A stretch of 64,000 nt of DNA. Source: Nanobdellota archaeon. Lineage in GTDB: Archaea; Nanobdellota; Nanobdellia; Woesearchaeales; UBA9642. Location of the stretch: the NCBI GenBank assembly GCA_021813435.1, contig JAKAKR010000004.1:56972-120971 (forward strand), read 5' to 3'. The notes under the pieces are model-generated. The model was not told where the DNA came from. It saw only the letters and a program-made list of their open reading frames with translations, and made no database searches. How positions within the stretch are numbered: the first letter of the stretch is position 1; each line of letters starts with the position of its first letter. The translations under genes were made by a program, and so were the position numbers. Of this stretch, positions 7,531-57,915 are shown piece by piece.

Positions 7531-7583
7531 GCCATAGAGCGAAGAGGAACTGCTTTTTTAAAGGTATCGAAAGAACTATTCTA

Positions 7584-7672
7584 CGGGCGTGCGAGGATTT
7601 GAACCCCGGACCTACAGCTTGCTTCTATACCAATAGAAGGCTGTCGCGCTATCCAAGCTGCGCTACACGCCC
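7584..7672 (-). tRNA. tRNA-Arg(TCT) with a 14-nt canonical-position intron (7620-7633)
   Basis: Cloverleaf drawn by hand. Acceptor GGGCGTG/CACGCCC, D stem GCGC/GCGC, anticodon stem ACAGC/GCTGT, T stem CGGGG/CCTCG. The anticodon loop region is 21 nt; removing TTGGTATAGAAGCA after A37 leaves the loop CTTCTAA. Confidence 0.92.
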
Positions 7673-7711
7673 ATGAATTCTTTGAAGACGCATATCGTAT
7701 TTAAAGTTGAT

Positions 7712-8146: not shown

Positions 8147-8407
8147 CTAATTTTCTTTTGAACTCTTCTTAGTTGCGATTATCCGAGAATTCTCAACACT
8201 GGTATCGACAACCTTGTTTTGCGCGTACAATTCCTCAAGGATATCCCATGCATGCTCGCGCGTATCATGATCACCATGCTTGATGAAATGATACAGCCGA
8301 TCAATCTTTTCTTGATGGCTCACTAATTCTTCAACCTCTTCAAGGATATCCTTTCGGTCCTTGGATATTGGGGACGGTGCATCCGCAACATCGGATTCGA
8401 GATTCAT
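8147..8407 (-). CDS. Uncharacterised small protein (86 aa), translationally overlapping the nucleoside phosphorylase gene
   Basis: 4-nt overlap with the upstream gene (8404-8407); charged, helical sequence. Confidence 0.6.
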   Translation of the reverse strand: MNLESDVADAPSPISKDRKDILEEVEELVSHQEKIDRLYHFIKHGDHDTREHAWDILEELYAQNKVVDTSVENSRIIATKKSSKEN

Positions 8408-9192
8408 TTTCGCCTCCGAAGATCTTTCTTCAATATGTCTAGTGCAAGAGTATAGATTTGATGCATTCCAGATTTTGTGTCAATACGATGAAAATCTGGC
8501 TTCCAGACAAGATCCGCAAGAGAATCACTGACGACGAACATTGCAGCCATTTCGATATGATGGTACTGCGCTACTGCAAAGAGCGCTGATGCCTCCATCT
8601 CGACAGTAAGTACACCCTGTTTTTGGTATTGTTTTACTTCTGCGACAGTCTCGCGATAAGGTGCGTCTATAGTCCATGACGTACCCTTTTTGTAATAGAG
8701 ATTTTTTTTACGAAGGTATGACTCAATTTTTGTTGTTAATGTTTGTGAAGGATAAGCATATTTTGAGGATTTAAGATAATGGAATGACGTTCCTTCGTCG
8801 CGAATGGCGCGAGTACATAACACCAAATCCCCTGGTTTGATCGCGTGTTGCAGTGTTCCGGCAGTGCCAATTGCAATATACGCTTTGGTGCCTAATGCAA
8901 TCGATTCTTCGATAGCAGTTACAATAGCAGGACTTCCAATACCTGTATTCCCAAGAATCCCAATTTGATTCTGTGATTCCTTAAGAAGATATAATTTTCC
9001 TCCAAATGCATTATGTTCACTAATTCGGTGATGTTCCTTGACATAATCCATCAATGAATCGCTATAGCAAATAATAATTGCTTTTGGAGCACGAACAAAC
9101 GGAACCCTCCTGTTTTTTTTCATATATTGTAAGAATTTTTTTGCAGTAAAAAAGGAATCTCTTACGTGTTTGTTCTTATAGTTCGGCAACAC
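8404..9192 (-). CDS. Purine/uridine nucleoside phosphorylase family protein
   Basis: GILGNTGIGSPAIVTAIEESIALGTKAYIAIGTAGTL...VLTVEMEASALFAVAQYHHIEMAAMFVVSDSLAD is the PNP_UDP_1 pattern. Confidence 0.88.
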   Translation of the reverse strand: MLPNYKNKHVRDSFFTAKKFLQYMKKNRRVPFVRAPKAIIICYSDSLMDYVKEHHRISEHNAFGGKLYLLKESQNQIGILGNTGIGSPAIVTAIEESIALGTKAYIAIGTAGTLQHAIKPGDLVLCTRAIRDEGTSFHYLKSSKYAYPSQTLTTKIESYLRKKNLYYKKGTSWTIDAPYRETVAEVKQYQKQGVLTVEMEASALFAVAQYHHIEMAAMFVVSDSLADLVWKPDFHRIDTKSGMHQIYTLALDILKKDLRRRK

Positions 9193-9577
9193 CCTTTATT
9201 TGAGTAATGCGTCTATATAAATCTATCCCTCAATACGTTAGAATATTTCCGGAGCACGAACCCAAAAGTTTAAATACTGCGGTGTTATACTTATAGCATG
9301 AACTCAGTAAAGCAATCAGGTCCCAGCACAAACCCTTGTGCTGATTCAGTTCATCACGCGTTCTGATTATCTTAGATTATGCACTATTCAAAATTCTATC
9401 AATAAATGGTCTTTTATAGCAAATATTACGACTACATGCTTTTCTATACACGCATTGCCACGCTCACAATGCAGTGATACCATAAGTGTTTCCAGAGATA
9501 TTTGTGATTGCTTTGACTATGTTAAGGTTCGCCCGGTGGTAATGCTCTGGACTGCAATAATTGCTCAGATGATCAAT

Positions 9578-9649
9578 GTCGTGCGTCGTATAGTGGCAGT
9601 ACACAGGACTGTGGATCCTGTAGCCCGGGTCCGATTCCCGGCGCGTGAC
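9578..9649 (+). tRNA. tRNA-His(GTG), with encoded G-1 opposite C73
   Basis: Acceptor TCGTGCG/CGCGTGA with G-1 and C73; D arm GTAT-AGTGGCA-GTAC; anticodon arm CAGGA-CTGTGGA-TCCTG; T arm CCGGG-TCCGATT-CCCGG. No encoded CCA. Confidence 0.9.
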
Positions 9650-9684
9650 CGTAAATCCCGTATAACGCAATGGAGGACTAAAAA

Positions 9685-9783
9685 ATGAAAGAAGAAGAAA
9701 ACATTAAAAGAACCATCGCAGCTACAGATTTTGAGGCTAAGGCATCACTGAATGCTGGTCCAGTTCACTTACTTAATAACTAA
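9685..9783 (+). CDS. Possible 32-aa small ORF with strong SD, overlapping the start of the PRTase-like ORF in another frame
   Basis: tGGAGGactaaaaaATG, then MKEEENIKRTIAATDFEAKASLNAGPVHLLNN*. The next ORF (9752) begins inside it, directly after an in-frame TGA. Confidence 0.4.
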   Translation: MKEEENIKRTIAATDFEAKASLNAGPVHLLNN

Positions 9784-10525
9784 AGATATTGTTGAAACAA
9801 TAGAACAACAAATTCAAAATACGCTTTCAAGTAATGCTCAAAATCGTCTACGCTTACTTGAAGAAGAATTTCTTAAAAAATTTTGGACGTTCATTCCTGG
9901 CACTATTGATAAACGGATAATTTCTGCACAAGAATTGCGAAAAGAATTATCCTATATCACTAAGACAATTCCTTTTGTAAGCCTCGACAGAATTTATTTT
10001 TTAGAAGCAGACGCATACCTCGATATTACTCGCATCACTAATCCAGAGACATATTCGGCTTCGCTCGGTCCCCGTCCAGGAGCTAAAACCATTAACGAAC
10101 AAATCGAAGAGATAAAAAAATATGACCGGATCATGCTTGGTGATGTAGGGGCATTTGAAGGAAATACTATTATAGATATCACCACGCAAATCGAACGTGC
10201 CGGAATACGTGTTGAAAATATTATCCTTGGATGCGTGGGAAGGGATGCGCGAACAAAAATTGAATTGATAAAACCACTCACTGCGCTTTATACCTTCGCG
10301 TTCTATGAATGGATTGAACTTCGAGATCTGTTCGGTATTGATGGGCGAAAAACAGAGAACTCTGCTTACATCCCATACTGGAATAATTTAAGATCATGGG
10401 CGAGTATTGAAGAAAAGAATATCGCACAGGTGGAGCAACTTTGCAGAGAGGCGTATGCACAAACAATCGCTGTTTTACGTAATGAAGAAATCCAAAAAAT
10501 AAGACTATCAGGGGTGGAACGATGA
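9752..10525 (+). CDS. Phosphoribosyltransferase-like protein (uncharacterised; start uncertain)
   Basis: YDRIMLGDVGAFEGNTIIDITTQIERAGIRVENIILGCVG resembles the PRPP-binding loop plus following helix/strand of type I PRTases. Overlaps the downstream gene by 4 nt. Confidence 0.6.
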   Translation: MLVQFTYLITKDIVETIEQQIQNTLSSNAQNRLRLLEEEFLKKFWTFIPGTIDKRIISAQELRKELSYITKTIPFVSLDRIYFLEADAYLDITRITNPETYSASLGPRPGAKTINEQIEEIKKYDRIMLGDVGAFEGNTIIDITTQIERAGIRVENIILGCVGRDARTKIELIKPLTALYTFAFYEWIELRDLFGIDGRKTENSAYIPYWNNLRSWASIEEKNIAQVEQLCREAYAQTIAVLRNEEIQKIRLSGVER

Positions 10526-11739
10526 GTATCACTATTATTTCATCGTTTGCAGAAGATCGGTTTATGGATACGGGAAGGGTTGCGGAGGGTGGACCTGCAT
10601 TTTTTATTACCCAATTCTGCCAGAAGAATATGATTCCGTACAATCTTATCACAGGAACGAAGGGGATTGTAGCGATAGAACAAAAGAATGATCAAGAGAA
10701 GGGGTATATTACTCGAGCAGGAAAAATCATACTTCCTCAAAAAAAGGGTATGTCTTGCGTACTTATCTCTACACTGTTAGATGAATTTCCTCTCCAGCCA
10801 TGCGGCGTATGGTGTTGTGTAGATATTCAAGGGTATGTCCGAGATAAAGATAATACTGGATTTAAAAAAGTGTATGATAATCCGGCGCTCGAGCAATGTG
10901 CAGTCGTTAAAGGCACTGCTGAAGAATTGTCTTATATCTCTACAGATCGTTTGAAAAAAATACCTCTTGTTCTCAAAACTGAAGGTTCTCGCGGGTTTTC
11001 AATCATAACAAGAACAAAGGAATATGTTTTTTGGAGTAAACCTATAATGACGCAGGACACCATCGGGGCAGGAGATACGCTTTTTGCTGCATTTTGCACA
11101 AAATATTATGCCAATAAAAATATTGTTGAGAGTGCGCAATACGCGCAGCAAAGTGTCGAAGCGTTTCTCGGAACAAAAATTCGCCCTTTGCTACAGATAG
11201 GTGTTATGGGATCAGCTGCAGATTTAGCATATCCAAGAGAACTCAGGATATTTGCTGAACAAGTTGGTGAGCTGCTGGCAAAAAAGGGATGTATTACCGT
11301 ATATGGTGCAGAAAAAGATAGTGATTCGTTATCAACCGCTGCTGCGCGGGGGGCAAAAAAATCTGGTGGAAAAACCGTAGGAGTGACATATGGGAGAGGA
11401 AAAGAAATTTATGATAAAAAATCCGCAGACATTATAATTGTTACCGGCAGCGATCGTGGTGGCGGAAGGGAATTCGTACTTGTCAATAGTTGCGATGCCA
11501 TTATCGCAATCAGCGGCGGGTCGGGGACACTGACTGAACTTGCTATAGGATACCAATCGAATATTCCATTGATATGCGTTACCGGCGTTGATGGTTGGAG
11601 TGGTAAGATCGCAGGAACATTTATTGATGAACGTAAACGTGTCCAATGCCTGAAAGCCGAAACTCCTGAAGAGGCAGTAAGATTAGCAATCGTAGAAGCA
11701 AATAAAAAAATAAATAGTGGCATTCAACAAACTATTTAA
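10522..11739 (+). CDS. Fusion protein: N-terminal PfkB-like carbohydrate/nucleoside kinase plus C-terminal LOG/TIGR00725-type SLOG domain
   Basis: PfkB motif DTIGAGDTLFAAF with GGPAFFI near the N-terminus. C-terminal IGVMGSAAD...GGKTVGVTYG...GGGREFVLVNSCDAIIAISGGSGTLTELAIG matches the LOG/SLOG (P)GGxGTxxE signature. Confidence 0.82.
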   Translation: MSITIISSFAEDRFMDTGRVAEGGPAFFITQFCQKNMIPYNLITGTKGIVAIEQKNDQEKGYITRAGKIILPQKKGMSCVLISTLLDEFPLQPCGVWCCVDIQGYVRDKDNTGFKKVYDNPALEQCAVVKGTAEELSYISTDRLKKIPLVLKTEGSRGFSIITRTKEYVFWSKPIMTQDTIGAGDTLFAAFCTKYYANKNIVESAQYAQQSVEAFLGTKIRPLLQIGVMGSAADLAYPRELRIFAEQVGELLAKKGCITVYGAEKDSDSLSTAAARGAKKSGGKTVGVTYGRGKEIYDKKSADIIIVTGSDRGGGREFVLVNSCDAIIAISGGSGTLTELAIGYQSNIPLICVTGVDGWSGKIAGTFIDERKRVQCLKAETPEEAVRLAIVEANKKINSGIQQTI

Positions 11740-11761: not shown

Positions 11762-13063
11762 ATGACAATCGAGATGGCAAAAGGCGTCCGGGATTTTGCG
11801 CCTGAAGATAAAATAATCCGTGAAAAACTCATCACGACACTGACCAGTATCTTCCAAAGATACGGCTACTCTCCTCTGGAAACTCCCTCAATCGAGCGGC
11901 TTGACACACTCACGGCAAAATTTGCTGCAGGGATCGAAAGCGATGCCGCAAAGGAAATATTCAAACTCTCAGACCAGGGCAATCGTGAATTGGGATTGCG
12001 ATTTGACCTCACTGTACCCTTCTCGAGGTTTGTGGCGTCAAATCCAAACCTGAAGATGCCATTCAAACGCTATGAGATCGGCAGGGTCTTTCGCGATGGC
12101 CCGATAAAACTGGGGCGTTACCGTGAATTCTGGCAGTGCGATGTCGATGTGACGGGAGTGAAATCAGTAAAAGCAGAGGCAGAACTCATCCTTCTTGCAC
12201 TCGACGCATTCCGTGAATTGAATCTTGACGCATACATCGAAGTGAATAACCGGAAATTACTGTACGGCATCATGGACAACTATGATATCGCACATGAGGC
12301 ACGCGAGGGAATCATCATCGCATTCGACAAGCTGAAAAAGCAGGGACTTGCAGCAGTGCAGAAGGAACTTGCAGAGAAGAATTACTGCGAATATACTATC
12401 GGAAGTATGAGTGATGTATTTACCATGGAAGGGACAACCGAGCAATTATTTGAAAAGCTTGAGCCGCTCTGCACGAGCGATCTGGGAAGAGAAGGACTTT
12501 CTGAACTCAAAGAATTGTTCTCTTATCTCAAATTTGTCCAGTCAGGAAAGGTGCGGCTCAACATCGGACTTGCGCGCGGACTCTCGTATTATACCGGGAC
12601 AGTCTTTGAAGGATTTCTTGTCGAGAGCAAAGTGACCTCCAGCATCTGCGGCGGCGGGCGCTATGATAATATGATCGGGATGTTTGCAAGCAATAACAGG
12701 GATTACCCTGCAGTGGGGATATCATTTGGGCTTGAACCTATCACTGACGCATTGCGACTATCCCATCCTGTCGAGCAGAAAACAGTGACTGAACTCTATC
12801 TTATCCCCATCAAGACATTCACTGAATCGCTTGCCATTGCAAAAGCGCTGCGTGATGCAGGACTCTGCGTTGACATCGATTTAATGGAACGAGGGATATC
12901 AAAGAATCTCGACTACGCAAACAGCAACAAGATACCCTTTGTCGGATTCATCGGCGATAGCGAACTCGCAGAGCAGAAAATCAAGATCAAGAACATGAAG
13001 ACCGGCTCAGAGAAGCTTGCAACACTCGATGAAGTCTATGCGATTGTAAGGAATGAATTGTGA
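11762..13063 (+). CDS. hisS: Histidyl-tRNA synthetase
   Basis: Class II motifs: RYGYSPLETPSIE, LRFDLTVPFSRFVA, FKRYEIGRVFRDGPIKLGRYREFWQCDVD, GLARGLSYYTGTVFE, ICGGGRYDNM. Start placed at the internal ATG 11762 instead of 11717. Confidence 0.96.
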   Translation: MTIEMAKGVRDFAPEDKIIREKLITTLTSIFQRYGYSPLETPSIERLDTLTAKFAAGIESDAAKEIFKLSDQGNRELGLRFDLTVPFSRFVASNPNLKMPFKRYEIGRVFRDGPIKLGRYREFWQCDVDVTGVKSVKAEAELILLALDAFRELNLDAYIEVNNRKLLYGIMDNYDIAHEAREGIIIAFDKLKKQGLAAVQKELAEKNYCEYTIGSMSDVFTMEGTTEQLFEKLEPLCTSDLGREGLSELKELFSYLKFVQSGKVRLNIGLARGLSYYTGTVFEGFLVESKVTSSICGGGRYDNMIGMFASNNRDYPAVGISFGLEPITDALRLSHPVEQKTVTELYLIPIKTFTESLAIAKALRDAGLCVDIDLMERGISKNLDYANSNKIPFVGFIGDSELAEQKIKIKNMKTGSEKLATLDEVYAIVRNEL

Positions 13064-56634: not shown

Positions 56635-57915
56635 TTATGCAGTATCCGGCGCGGTTGATGGTTTTCCCTTCCTTTTGAAGAAGAGCACGCGCATCTCCTG
56701 TTCTCCGGAATAGATTGTTTTTTCATCAGCCAGTTCAAAATGTTCCTCTGCTGCTGCAAGAAGCTGTTTTGCAGTGATGCAGAGCACGACAACACTCCCC
56801 TCGGGCTTGATGATATACTCTGCTTGGTAGAAGAATTCCTTGAATTGCTTATCGAGCAGTGCATCATGCTTGTGTTTGGAGCTTCCGGGAATAAAAGTAA
56901 TGATCTTGTCGAACCCTGATTTTTCGAACTTGACATCATGCCAATCGATGTCGATTCTGCGAAAGTGCAGATATTTCTCGACACCTGCAATCTTTGCATT
57001 TTTATTTGCTGCAGTGATATTGCGCAGGAGCGGATCTGCAGCAGTGATTGGTGGATCGATATCTTTTTGCGCTTTGTCCTCTTTGGCAAAGAATGCATCC
57101 CAGTCAGTTCCGGAAAGCAGGGCAAGTTTCATGAATGGAAATGTCTTATGGTATTGCCTGTGCGAGATATTATTTGCAAAGAGCACTGCCTCGATTGCGA
57201 GTGTCCCGGAATTTGCGAAGGGATCAAGCAGCGAATCCTTAGGATGGTATCCTGCAAGCGCAAGAAGCCCAAATGCCGTCGTACCCCTCAATGATTGGGA
57301 GCTGTTGAATACGCGATAATCGCGTTTTGCAAGATCACCGGAAAAATCAATGCAAAGATATGCCTGGTGGTGTTGCGTGCCAGAGGAGGGAGCGCGATTG
57401 CTGGCGATGCAATAGACCGCAATGTCAGGATGTTTGAGATCAATTTCTAGACTGATCCCTTGTGCTGCAAGATTCTCGTCGATACATTTGCCGATGTGGC
57501 GTTCTAATTCTTGATTGTCCAGCACTTTGGAGCGGCAATACACACGGAACGCTGAAGCCGGGGTAAAGCATGTGGCGATATGCTTGTTTTTTGCGATGCG
57601 ATCCTGGAGTTGCGCTGCAAGATCGTCCTCGGTTGTATATGATATTTTTTCAAGGAGGATAAAGAGTTGGTTTATGATTTGTGAGCGGTATGTGATCCTG
57701 CACAGATCCATAAGCGAGTTTGTCTGGAATGTGATCATTCCTTTTTCTTCCGGTATCCGGGATGGGTTTGTGATCGGGGCGTATACTGCGATATTTTTGA
57801 ATGCAATCTCTTCAAATCCCGGATTTACCAGTGCAAGCGCAGTGATAGGTGAAGGCATCAGAACATCTTTTGAGAGAACAGCAGGTTTCATGAATCCACA
57901 ACCACTACACGACAA
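56635..57915 (-). CDS. THUMP-domain class I RNA methyltransferase (Trm14/RlmL-like)
   Basis: LAGYHPKDSLLDPFANSGTLAIEAVLFANNI methylase motif I; N-terminal FRVYCRSKVLDNQELERHIGKCIDENL THUMP-like. Confidence 0.83.
   Translation of the reverse strand: MSCSGCGFMKPAVLSKDVLMPSPITALALVNPGFEEIAFKNIAVYAPITNPSRIPEEKGMITFQTNSLMDLCRITYRSQIINQLFILLEKISYTTEDDLAAQLQDRIAKNKHIATCFTPASAFRVYCRSKVLDNQELERHIGKCIDENLAAQGISLEIDLKHPDIAVYCIASNRAPSSGTQHHQAYLCIDFSGDLAKRDYRVFNSSQSLRGTTAFGLLALAGYHPKDSLLDPFANSGTLAIEAVLFANNISHRQYHKTFPFMKLALLSGTDWDAFFAKEDKAQKDIDPPITAADPLLRNITAANKNAKIAGVEKYLHFRRIDIDWHDVKFEKSGFDKIITFIPGSSKHKHDALLDKQFKEFFYQAEYIIKPEGSVVVLCITAKQLLAAAEEHFELADEKTIYSGEQEMRVLFFKRKGKPSTAPDTA

Follow-up and report, generated by a model that had tools for sequence, protein, structure and literature searches.

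Why would an archaeon with a genome of 1.41 Mb (16 contigs) carry, between its tRNA-His and its histidyl-tRNA synthetase (HisRS) gene hisS, a phosphoribosyltransferase (PRTase)-like protein and a PfkB-type kinase fused to a SLOG domain? The window analyzed here is the whole stretch of 64,000 nucleotides (nt) at positions 56,972 to 120,971 of contig JAKAKR010000004.1 (assembly GCA_021813435.1, Nanobdellota, Woesearchaeales). A sequence-only reading had proposed a nucleotide-salvage or nucleotide-signal cluster at this place, and when its open reading frames (ORFs), the 4-nt overlap and the tRNA-His were recomputed, all of them came out at the same coordinates. Four features run head to tail on one strand, in the order tRNA-His, PRTase-like gene, fusion and hisS (protein lengths in amino acids [aa]):

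9579-9650, plus strand: tRNA-His (GTG), called by ARAGORN; the PRTase-like gene begins 101 nt further downstream
9752-10525, plus strand: PRTase-like protein (PRT), 257 aa, from the ORF call, the predicted fold and family motifs
10142-10168, plus strand: DVGAFEGNT, residues 131-139 of PRT, at the position of the phosphoribosyl pyrophosphate (PRPP) loop of type I PRTases, with Val replacing the second acidic residue
10522-11739, plus strand: kinase-SLOG fusion, 405 aa, from the ORF call, overlapping the PRTase-like gene by 4 nt
10522-11172, plus strand: short PfkB kinase domain, residues 1-217 of the fusion, from PF00294, the active-site motif and Foldseek
11191-11739, plus strand: LDcluster4 SLOG domain of the "YGAEKD" subfamily, residues 224-405 of the fusion, from PF18306, with Arg316 and Glu339
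11762-13063, plus strand: hisS, single copy in the window genome

The start of hisS is the ATG at 11762, 22 nt past the fusion stop (the 448-aa hisS ORF uses an upstream GTG). Chance is excluded as the origin of this arrangement because the PRTase-like gene, the kinase and the SLOG are conserved, with recurring neighbors, in other genomes. Close homologues in the loci named below come from Woesearchaeota and other DPANN archaea, three of which share their order with the window genome. The module is therefore real and conserved; it is also undescribed, and we found no account of it in the open-access literature. Its chemistry is likely of the salvage type, and a signaling role is possible. We give a probability of roughly 0.45 to the reading that the PRTase-like gene and the kinase-SLOG fusion form a module in which a base is interconverted with the corresponding ribonucleoside and 5'-nucleotide and which hisS couples to histidine metabolism.

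The strongest conserved association is the tRNA-His/hisS setting. The sequence-only reading had the cluster "embedded" there, which is right as a location, but the setting is a functional context and not just a place. Profiles of the SLOG subfamily were positive in 15 of 353 genomes of the order (ca. 4%), and in more at the class level. In a set of 20 SLOG loci, G353 included, hisS is next or next but one to the SLOG gene on the same strand in 12 (the window, G045, G151, G163, G167, G185, G230, G353, G366, G425, G563, and G623), it lies ca. 5 kb or less away in G077 and G245, and the loci of G299 and G087 are on short contigs or at contig ends. Across more than 20 related genomes, this pairing recurs far too often for chance; a rough binomial estimate for 12 of 19 loci gives 4e-26, a figure that ignores relatedness among loci that are not fully independent. 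The hisS tree shows at least seven changes of association on well-supported branches, ruling out a single inherited hisS block, and the window hisS groups with those of other members of its genus, all of which are without the module. The clustered hisS encodes the sole HisRS in eight genomes, including that of the window; G045, G077, and G087 have an additional copy (the second HisS of G087 is on another contig). The SLOG also recurs with N-acyl amino-acid deacylases, with the kinase and the PRTase-like gene, and with either HisG or a short HisG-like protein.

What, then, does the fusion consist of? Both halves proposed from the sequence alone were recovered above the Pfam cut-offs. PF00294 (PfkB) matches residues 124 to 210 (1.3e-8, 35 bits against a gathering cut-off of 25.8), and the kinase active site DTIGAGD occupies residues 179 to 185 (11056-11076), with the Asp of GAGD conserved. 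No curated subfamily model (ribokinase, nucleoside kinase, and others) reaches its cut-off with the kinase half, and all are far below. By TM-score, the nearest solved structure found by Foldseek is the TK2285 myo-inositol kinase, which has the DTxGAGD motif, the GG hinge and the VDIQG block in common with the window kinase; the latter, however, is only about 219 aa long, compared with 273 aa for the solved chain and a norm of 300 aa. The AlphaFold model of the fusion shows two domains (pLDDT, 77.8; pTM, 0.55).

The SLOG half gives a much stronger match, to PF18306 (LDcluster4/SLOG cluster 4), over residues 224 to 386 (7e-28, 97.6 bits against a gathering cut-off of 26.3), but neither TIGR00725 nor the cytokinin LOG model reaches its curated cut-off with the fusion (37 bits against 300 for the LOG equivalog). 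LOG is the family of cytokinin riboside 5'-monophosphate phosphoribohydrolases. Arg316 and Glu339 sit in a LOG-like R...GGxGTxxE arrangement, and both are invariant in an alignment of 15 of 15 SLOGs, where they align with Arg99 and Glu122, the catalytic residues of CgLOG (PMC4979012). Catalytic residues are kept in the kinase and SLOG domains alike. A Rossmann-like fold is also common to the two families, and the LOG structure 7w2i matches the SLOG profile at 1e-6. Unlike LOGs, the window domain belongs to LDcluster4 and is fused to a kinase, and GGxGTxxE, although invariant, is without the preceding Pro of PGGxGTxxE in all 15 sequences. By analogy with LOG, phosphoribohydrolase chemistry would be expected of this domain.

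The closest solved structures to the SLOG half in Foldseek are TM1055 and the molybdenum-cofactor (Moco) carriers, nearer than classical LOGs. Together with the TK2285 match of the kinase, this would fit a SLOG acting as a noncatalytic carrier (of Moco, for example) beside a kinase for an unrelated polyol. We regard this as extremely improbable: the SLOGs keep GGxGTxxE and the catalytic Arg without variation, whereas TM1055 and the Moco carriers depart from the motif, and the PRTase-like and HAD-nucleosidase context described below is unrelated to Moco.

The 257-aa protein upstream is harder to place. It has no family match above the cut-off and no match to PF00156 (one homologue reaches it at an E value of 0.09), and PDB searches by sequence found nothing significant, whether with the single protein or with a profile. 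Its AF2 model is fair (pLDDT, 80.8; pTM, 0.77), and each of the 50 best PDB matches in Foldseek is a phosphoribosyltransferase or a related protein, from the group of type I enzymes such as OPRT, UPRT, XPRT, and APRT, at a probability of about 1 but with TM-scores on the query of only 0.27 to 0.36. An Asp loop lies at the PRPP-loop position; in contrast to type I PRTases, the family (10 homologues) has an altered motif, DVGxFxGxT, which includes Asp131, and a conserved WIELRDxxGIDGR block of its own. None of the 10 homologues matches the 13-residue PRPP motif (a PS00103-type pattern). Since the identity rests on a predicted fold, the TM-scores are low and the PRPP pattern fails, we use the label "PRTase-like" and not "PRTase." A 303-aa gene upstream of the SLOG in G245 was compared as a possible relative and is not convincingly related. 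At the 5' end of the gene, a 32-codon ORF, MKEEENIKRTIAATDFEAKASLNAGPVHLLNN (9685-9783, plus strand), begins 35 nt past tRNA-His and, in another frame, reaches into the first part of the PRTase-like gene; it is possibly a leader, or due to chance.

Is the fusion more than an accident of one genome? Homologues of its kinase and SLOG halves are encoded by separate genes at one locus in seven further genomes (orthologous kinases in G025, G041, G045, G087, G353, and G425 and a more distant one in G214). Because the two are elsewhere separate and often overlapping genes, the fusion reflects a real functional link, and the 4-nt kinase/SLOG overlap seen in G025, G353, and G425 could be the route by which it arose. 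In G041 and G045, the kinase has the PRTase-like gene next to it or close by, so the gene pair singled out by the sequence-only reading is conserved beyond the window genome. Of the three outcomes named in advance as refuting that reading (a 257-aa protein lacking a PRTase fold, a gene pair confined to this genome, and a fusion without catalytic residues), none was observed. A scan of 85,000 species for the kinase returned four loci only, all from DPANN archaea, and scans of viruses for each of the three families (kinase, SLOG and PRTase-like) found nothing, leaving a phage or conflict-system origin unsupported. The orthologous kinase of G087 is itself part of a 470-aa HisA-PfkB kinase fusion (L040:799-2211), which shares its locus with hisIE, hisG, and an inosine monophosphate (IMP)-cyclohydrolase-like gene. 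G045 (L028:1363-1968), G077 (L066:5546-6169), and G087 (L080:1335-1955) each encode a second LDcluster4 protein that seems to lack the region of the catalytic Arg; in G087, on a separate contig, the gene order is PRTase-like gene, second LDcluster4 protein, and HisS.

Loci in which parts are swapped speak to what the SLOG might do. PRT, SLOG and hisS follow one another in G185, G230, G563, and G623, and a search with the PRTase-like profile also retrieved loci without a YGAEKD SLOG: PRT, a HAD nucleotidase, an NP-I phosphorylase and hisS in one run (G206); PRT, HAD and phosphorylase (G521); PRT, HAD and a nucleoside hydrolase (G565); and PRT, phosphorylase, HutH and hisS (a second locus of G366). 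An NP-I superfamily phosphorylase is thus a repeated neighbor of the PRTase-like gene (G206, G521, and G366), and two of the SLOG-less loci (G206 and G366) include hisS. Given that a HAD plus a phosphorylase or hydrolase (two steps, equal to one LOG-type step) replaces the SLOG, the latter is probably a nucleotide phosphoribohydrolase that acts on the product of the PRTase-like protein, the same compound as that handled by the HAD and nucleosidase set. The nearest models, all below equivalog cut-offs, are pyrimidine 5'-nucleotidase for the HADs, uridine phosphorylase for the phosphorylases and RihC/RihA for the hydrolase, and these pyrimidine-type affinities suggest a base with one ring.

The recurrence of the phosphorylase makes its divergent counterpart in the window a possible member of the module, although this membership is uncertain:

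8404-9192, minus strand: NP-I nucleoside phosphorylase, 262 aa (PF01048, 2.7e-34), divergent from tRNA-His
8147-8407, minus strand: 86-aa orphan, from the ORF call, overlapping the phosphorylase by 4 nt

The first of these was correctly named from the sequence alone. The second, which the sequence-only reading had listed beside the phosphorylase, has no family match above the cut-off and was not seen in related loci by BLAST.

Could these genes simply serve ordinary uracil or purine base salvage, with hisS a neighbor only through the packing of housekeeping genes in compact archaeal genomes? The genomes of these archaea are small, and a PRTase, a HAD nucleotidase, a uridine phosphorylase-like enzyme and a nucleoside hydrolase are typical salvage partners. 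We nevertheless consider this unlikely, as the aminoacyl-tRNA synthetase partner is repeatedly hisS across the state changes on the hisS tree (seven or more), HisG, HisI, HisA, and HutH recur at the same places, and the PRTase-like protein has no match to known salvage PRTases. Salvage-type chemistry as first suggested is partly supported by the predicted PRTase-like fold, the kinase-SLOG link and the recurring phosphorylase and nucleoside hydrolase; its phosphoribohydrolase step is a prediction. Queuosine salvage is an example of a nucleoside kinase paired with a nucleotide hydrolase. The proposed route, from nucleoside to nucleotide to free base, resembles such pairs, whereas the module differs from them in its hydrolase family, its link to hisS and its one-chain fusion.

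From the families, predicted fold, residues, gene order, fusion and part swapping observed, we infer the reactions, the way each one runs, what they act on and why hisS is linked, as follows. The PfkB half would convert a ribonucleoside to its 5'-nucleotide, and the SLOG half would split the nucleotide into base and ribose 5-phosphate; the PRTase-like protein would exchange base and nucleotide through PRPP; and in SLOG-less genomes, two reactions, by the HAD nucleotidase and the nucleoside phosphorylase or hydrolase, would stand in for the SLOG step. The base probably has a single ring, and, as the module is tied to histidine genes, our first guess is a histidine-related imidazole compound, perhaps histidine itself. 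Several observations weigh against this scheme. The kinase is structurally nearest to a myo-inositol kinase and not to a nucleoside kinase, and the SLOG to TM1055 and Moco carriers and not to LOGs; the PRTase-like protein matches no PRTase by sequence, its PRPP motif is short of the second acidic residue, and its TM-scores are low. PRT and SLOG, acting as proposed, would form a futile cycle unless regulated or one-way. The SLOG occurs in just ca. 4% of the genomes of the order and is absent from three other members of the window's genus, and no gene of the module explains why HisRS would need it.

Other histidine-related neighbors bear on this point. Genes of upper histidine biosynthesis are found at the SLOG locus of three genomes: hisG with hisIE or hisA-IE in G045 (L028:6546-9953) and G087 (L040) and hisG and hisI near the SLOG in G077 (L066:12285-13512). 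The hisG is a true one in all three, with HisG_C in G045 and G077. HisB (PF00475) was absent from 7 of 7 and HisD (PF00815) from 12 of 12 of the cluster genomes searched, among them two of these three, G045 and G087, which rules out a complete but divergent histidine pathway in the genomes searched. The module might accordingly handle a by-product of a truncated pathway, either imidazole glycerol phosphate or 5-aminoimidazole-4-carboxamide ribonucleotide (AICAR), itself an imidazole ribonucleotide; the upper-pathway genes, the missing HisB and HisD families, and the HisA-kinase fusion and IMP-cyclohydrolase-like gene of G087 agree with this. It is improbable, since the window genome and four other module genomes have no HisG match at the cut-off and hence no AICAR from that source.

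HisG-like genes also appear in a different position. Proteins of 244 to 254 aa without a HisG_C match are encoded between the SLOG and the sole HisRS in G151, G163, and G167, and a HisG-like gene adjoins hisS in G014 and G042 (208 to 254 aa over the five; L067:9743-10507, L070:8659-9396, L073:2677-3411, L129:1304-1963, and L127:6163-6789). This recalls short-form HisG with HisZ, a HisRS paralogue, in that a HisG-like gene adjoins a HisRS gene in all five and HisG_C is lacking in the three scanned; it departs from that system in that the neighboring HisRS is the sole copy, with synthetase motifs intact, in G151, G163, and G167. SLOG domains are nucleotide sensors in other systems, and a histidine-responsive nucleotide signal can be imagined: a phosphoribosyl compound made by the PRTase-like or the HisG-like protein and sensed or erased by the SLOG, with HisRS perhaps controlling the protein that makes it, in the way that HisZ controls short-form HisG. 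We see this as a long shot, for the module has no linked effector domain and the replacement of the SLOG by HAD plus nucleosidase resembles metabolism; the modified-nucleotide signal raised from the sequence alone gained no positive evidence. Returning to a metabolic role, a DPANN metabolism of a phosphoribosylated, histidine-related imidazole compound, coupled to HisRS and put together from parts that can replace one another (a HisG-like protein or a new PRTase family, a SLOG or a HAD plus nucleosidase, and an optional kinase), with some lineages diverting the upper histidine pathway, is conceivable but doubtful.

Amino acid-processing genes form the last group of neighbors. M20 or AstE N-acyl amino-acid deacylases occur at 6 of 8 kinase-bearing loci and at 0 of 12 others (Fisher P = 7e-4, in a small and related sample), a hint of an amino-acid conjugate. 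A gene of ca. 220 aa beside M20 in G041 and G087 looks acetyltransferase-like by eye and has no family match. Asp/Glu-type amino-acid racemases adjoin hisS in G017 (L131:6605-9718) and G214 (L132:5466-7521) and lie in the SLOG loci of G167 (L073:1332-2081) and G245 (L074:8325-9113), accompanied by an unassigned protein of 303 to 375 aa in G017 and G245. Also near the SLOG of G245 (L074:9379-11044) are an orphan without a Pfam match, which to the eye resembles class I aminoacyl-tRNA synthetases, and then an ASCH-domain protein. True HutH is present in two related loci; in G041, it comes after the SLOG, together with a nucleoside hydrolase. G002, a member of the window's genus, has a HutH-like protein, an isochorismatase-like hydrolase and HisS in one run (L130:2706-6143) and no SLOG module.

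Such neighbors raise the idea of histidine scavenging or buffering, with L-histidine freed from, or stored as, a (phospho)ribosyl conjugate and with deacylases and racemases freeing it from acylated and D forms, for use by the neighboring HisRS. The deacylase enrichment and the racemases favor it; yet HutH consumes histidine, the PRTase-like protein would conjugate it, and we know of no ribosyl-histidine pool, so that we judge it quite unlikely. Elsewhere in the window, a tRNA-Glu (7583-7673, minus strand) has 91 nt, above the usual length, and may hold an intron.

If the base-nucleotide interconversion module proposed here is what it seems, nucleotide and histidine metabolism would be connected, in archaea with reduced genomes, by a route that textbooks do not contain. 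The analysis offers a specific, expressible set of enzymes and leads to the functions of three unassigned families, the PRTase-like proteins, the YGAEKD SLOGs and the short kinases. It also bears on why some Woesearchaeota retain hisG, hisI or hisIE and hisA without HisB and HisD, and on the origin of the partnership between HisG and HisRS in the HisG/HisZ enzyme.

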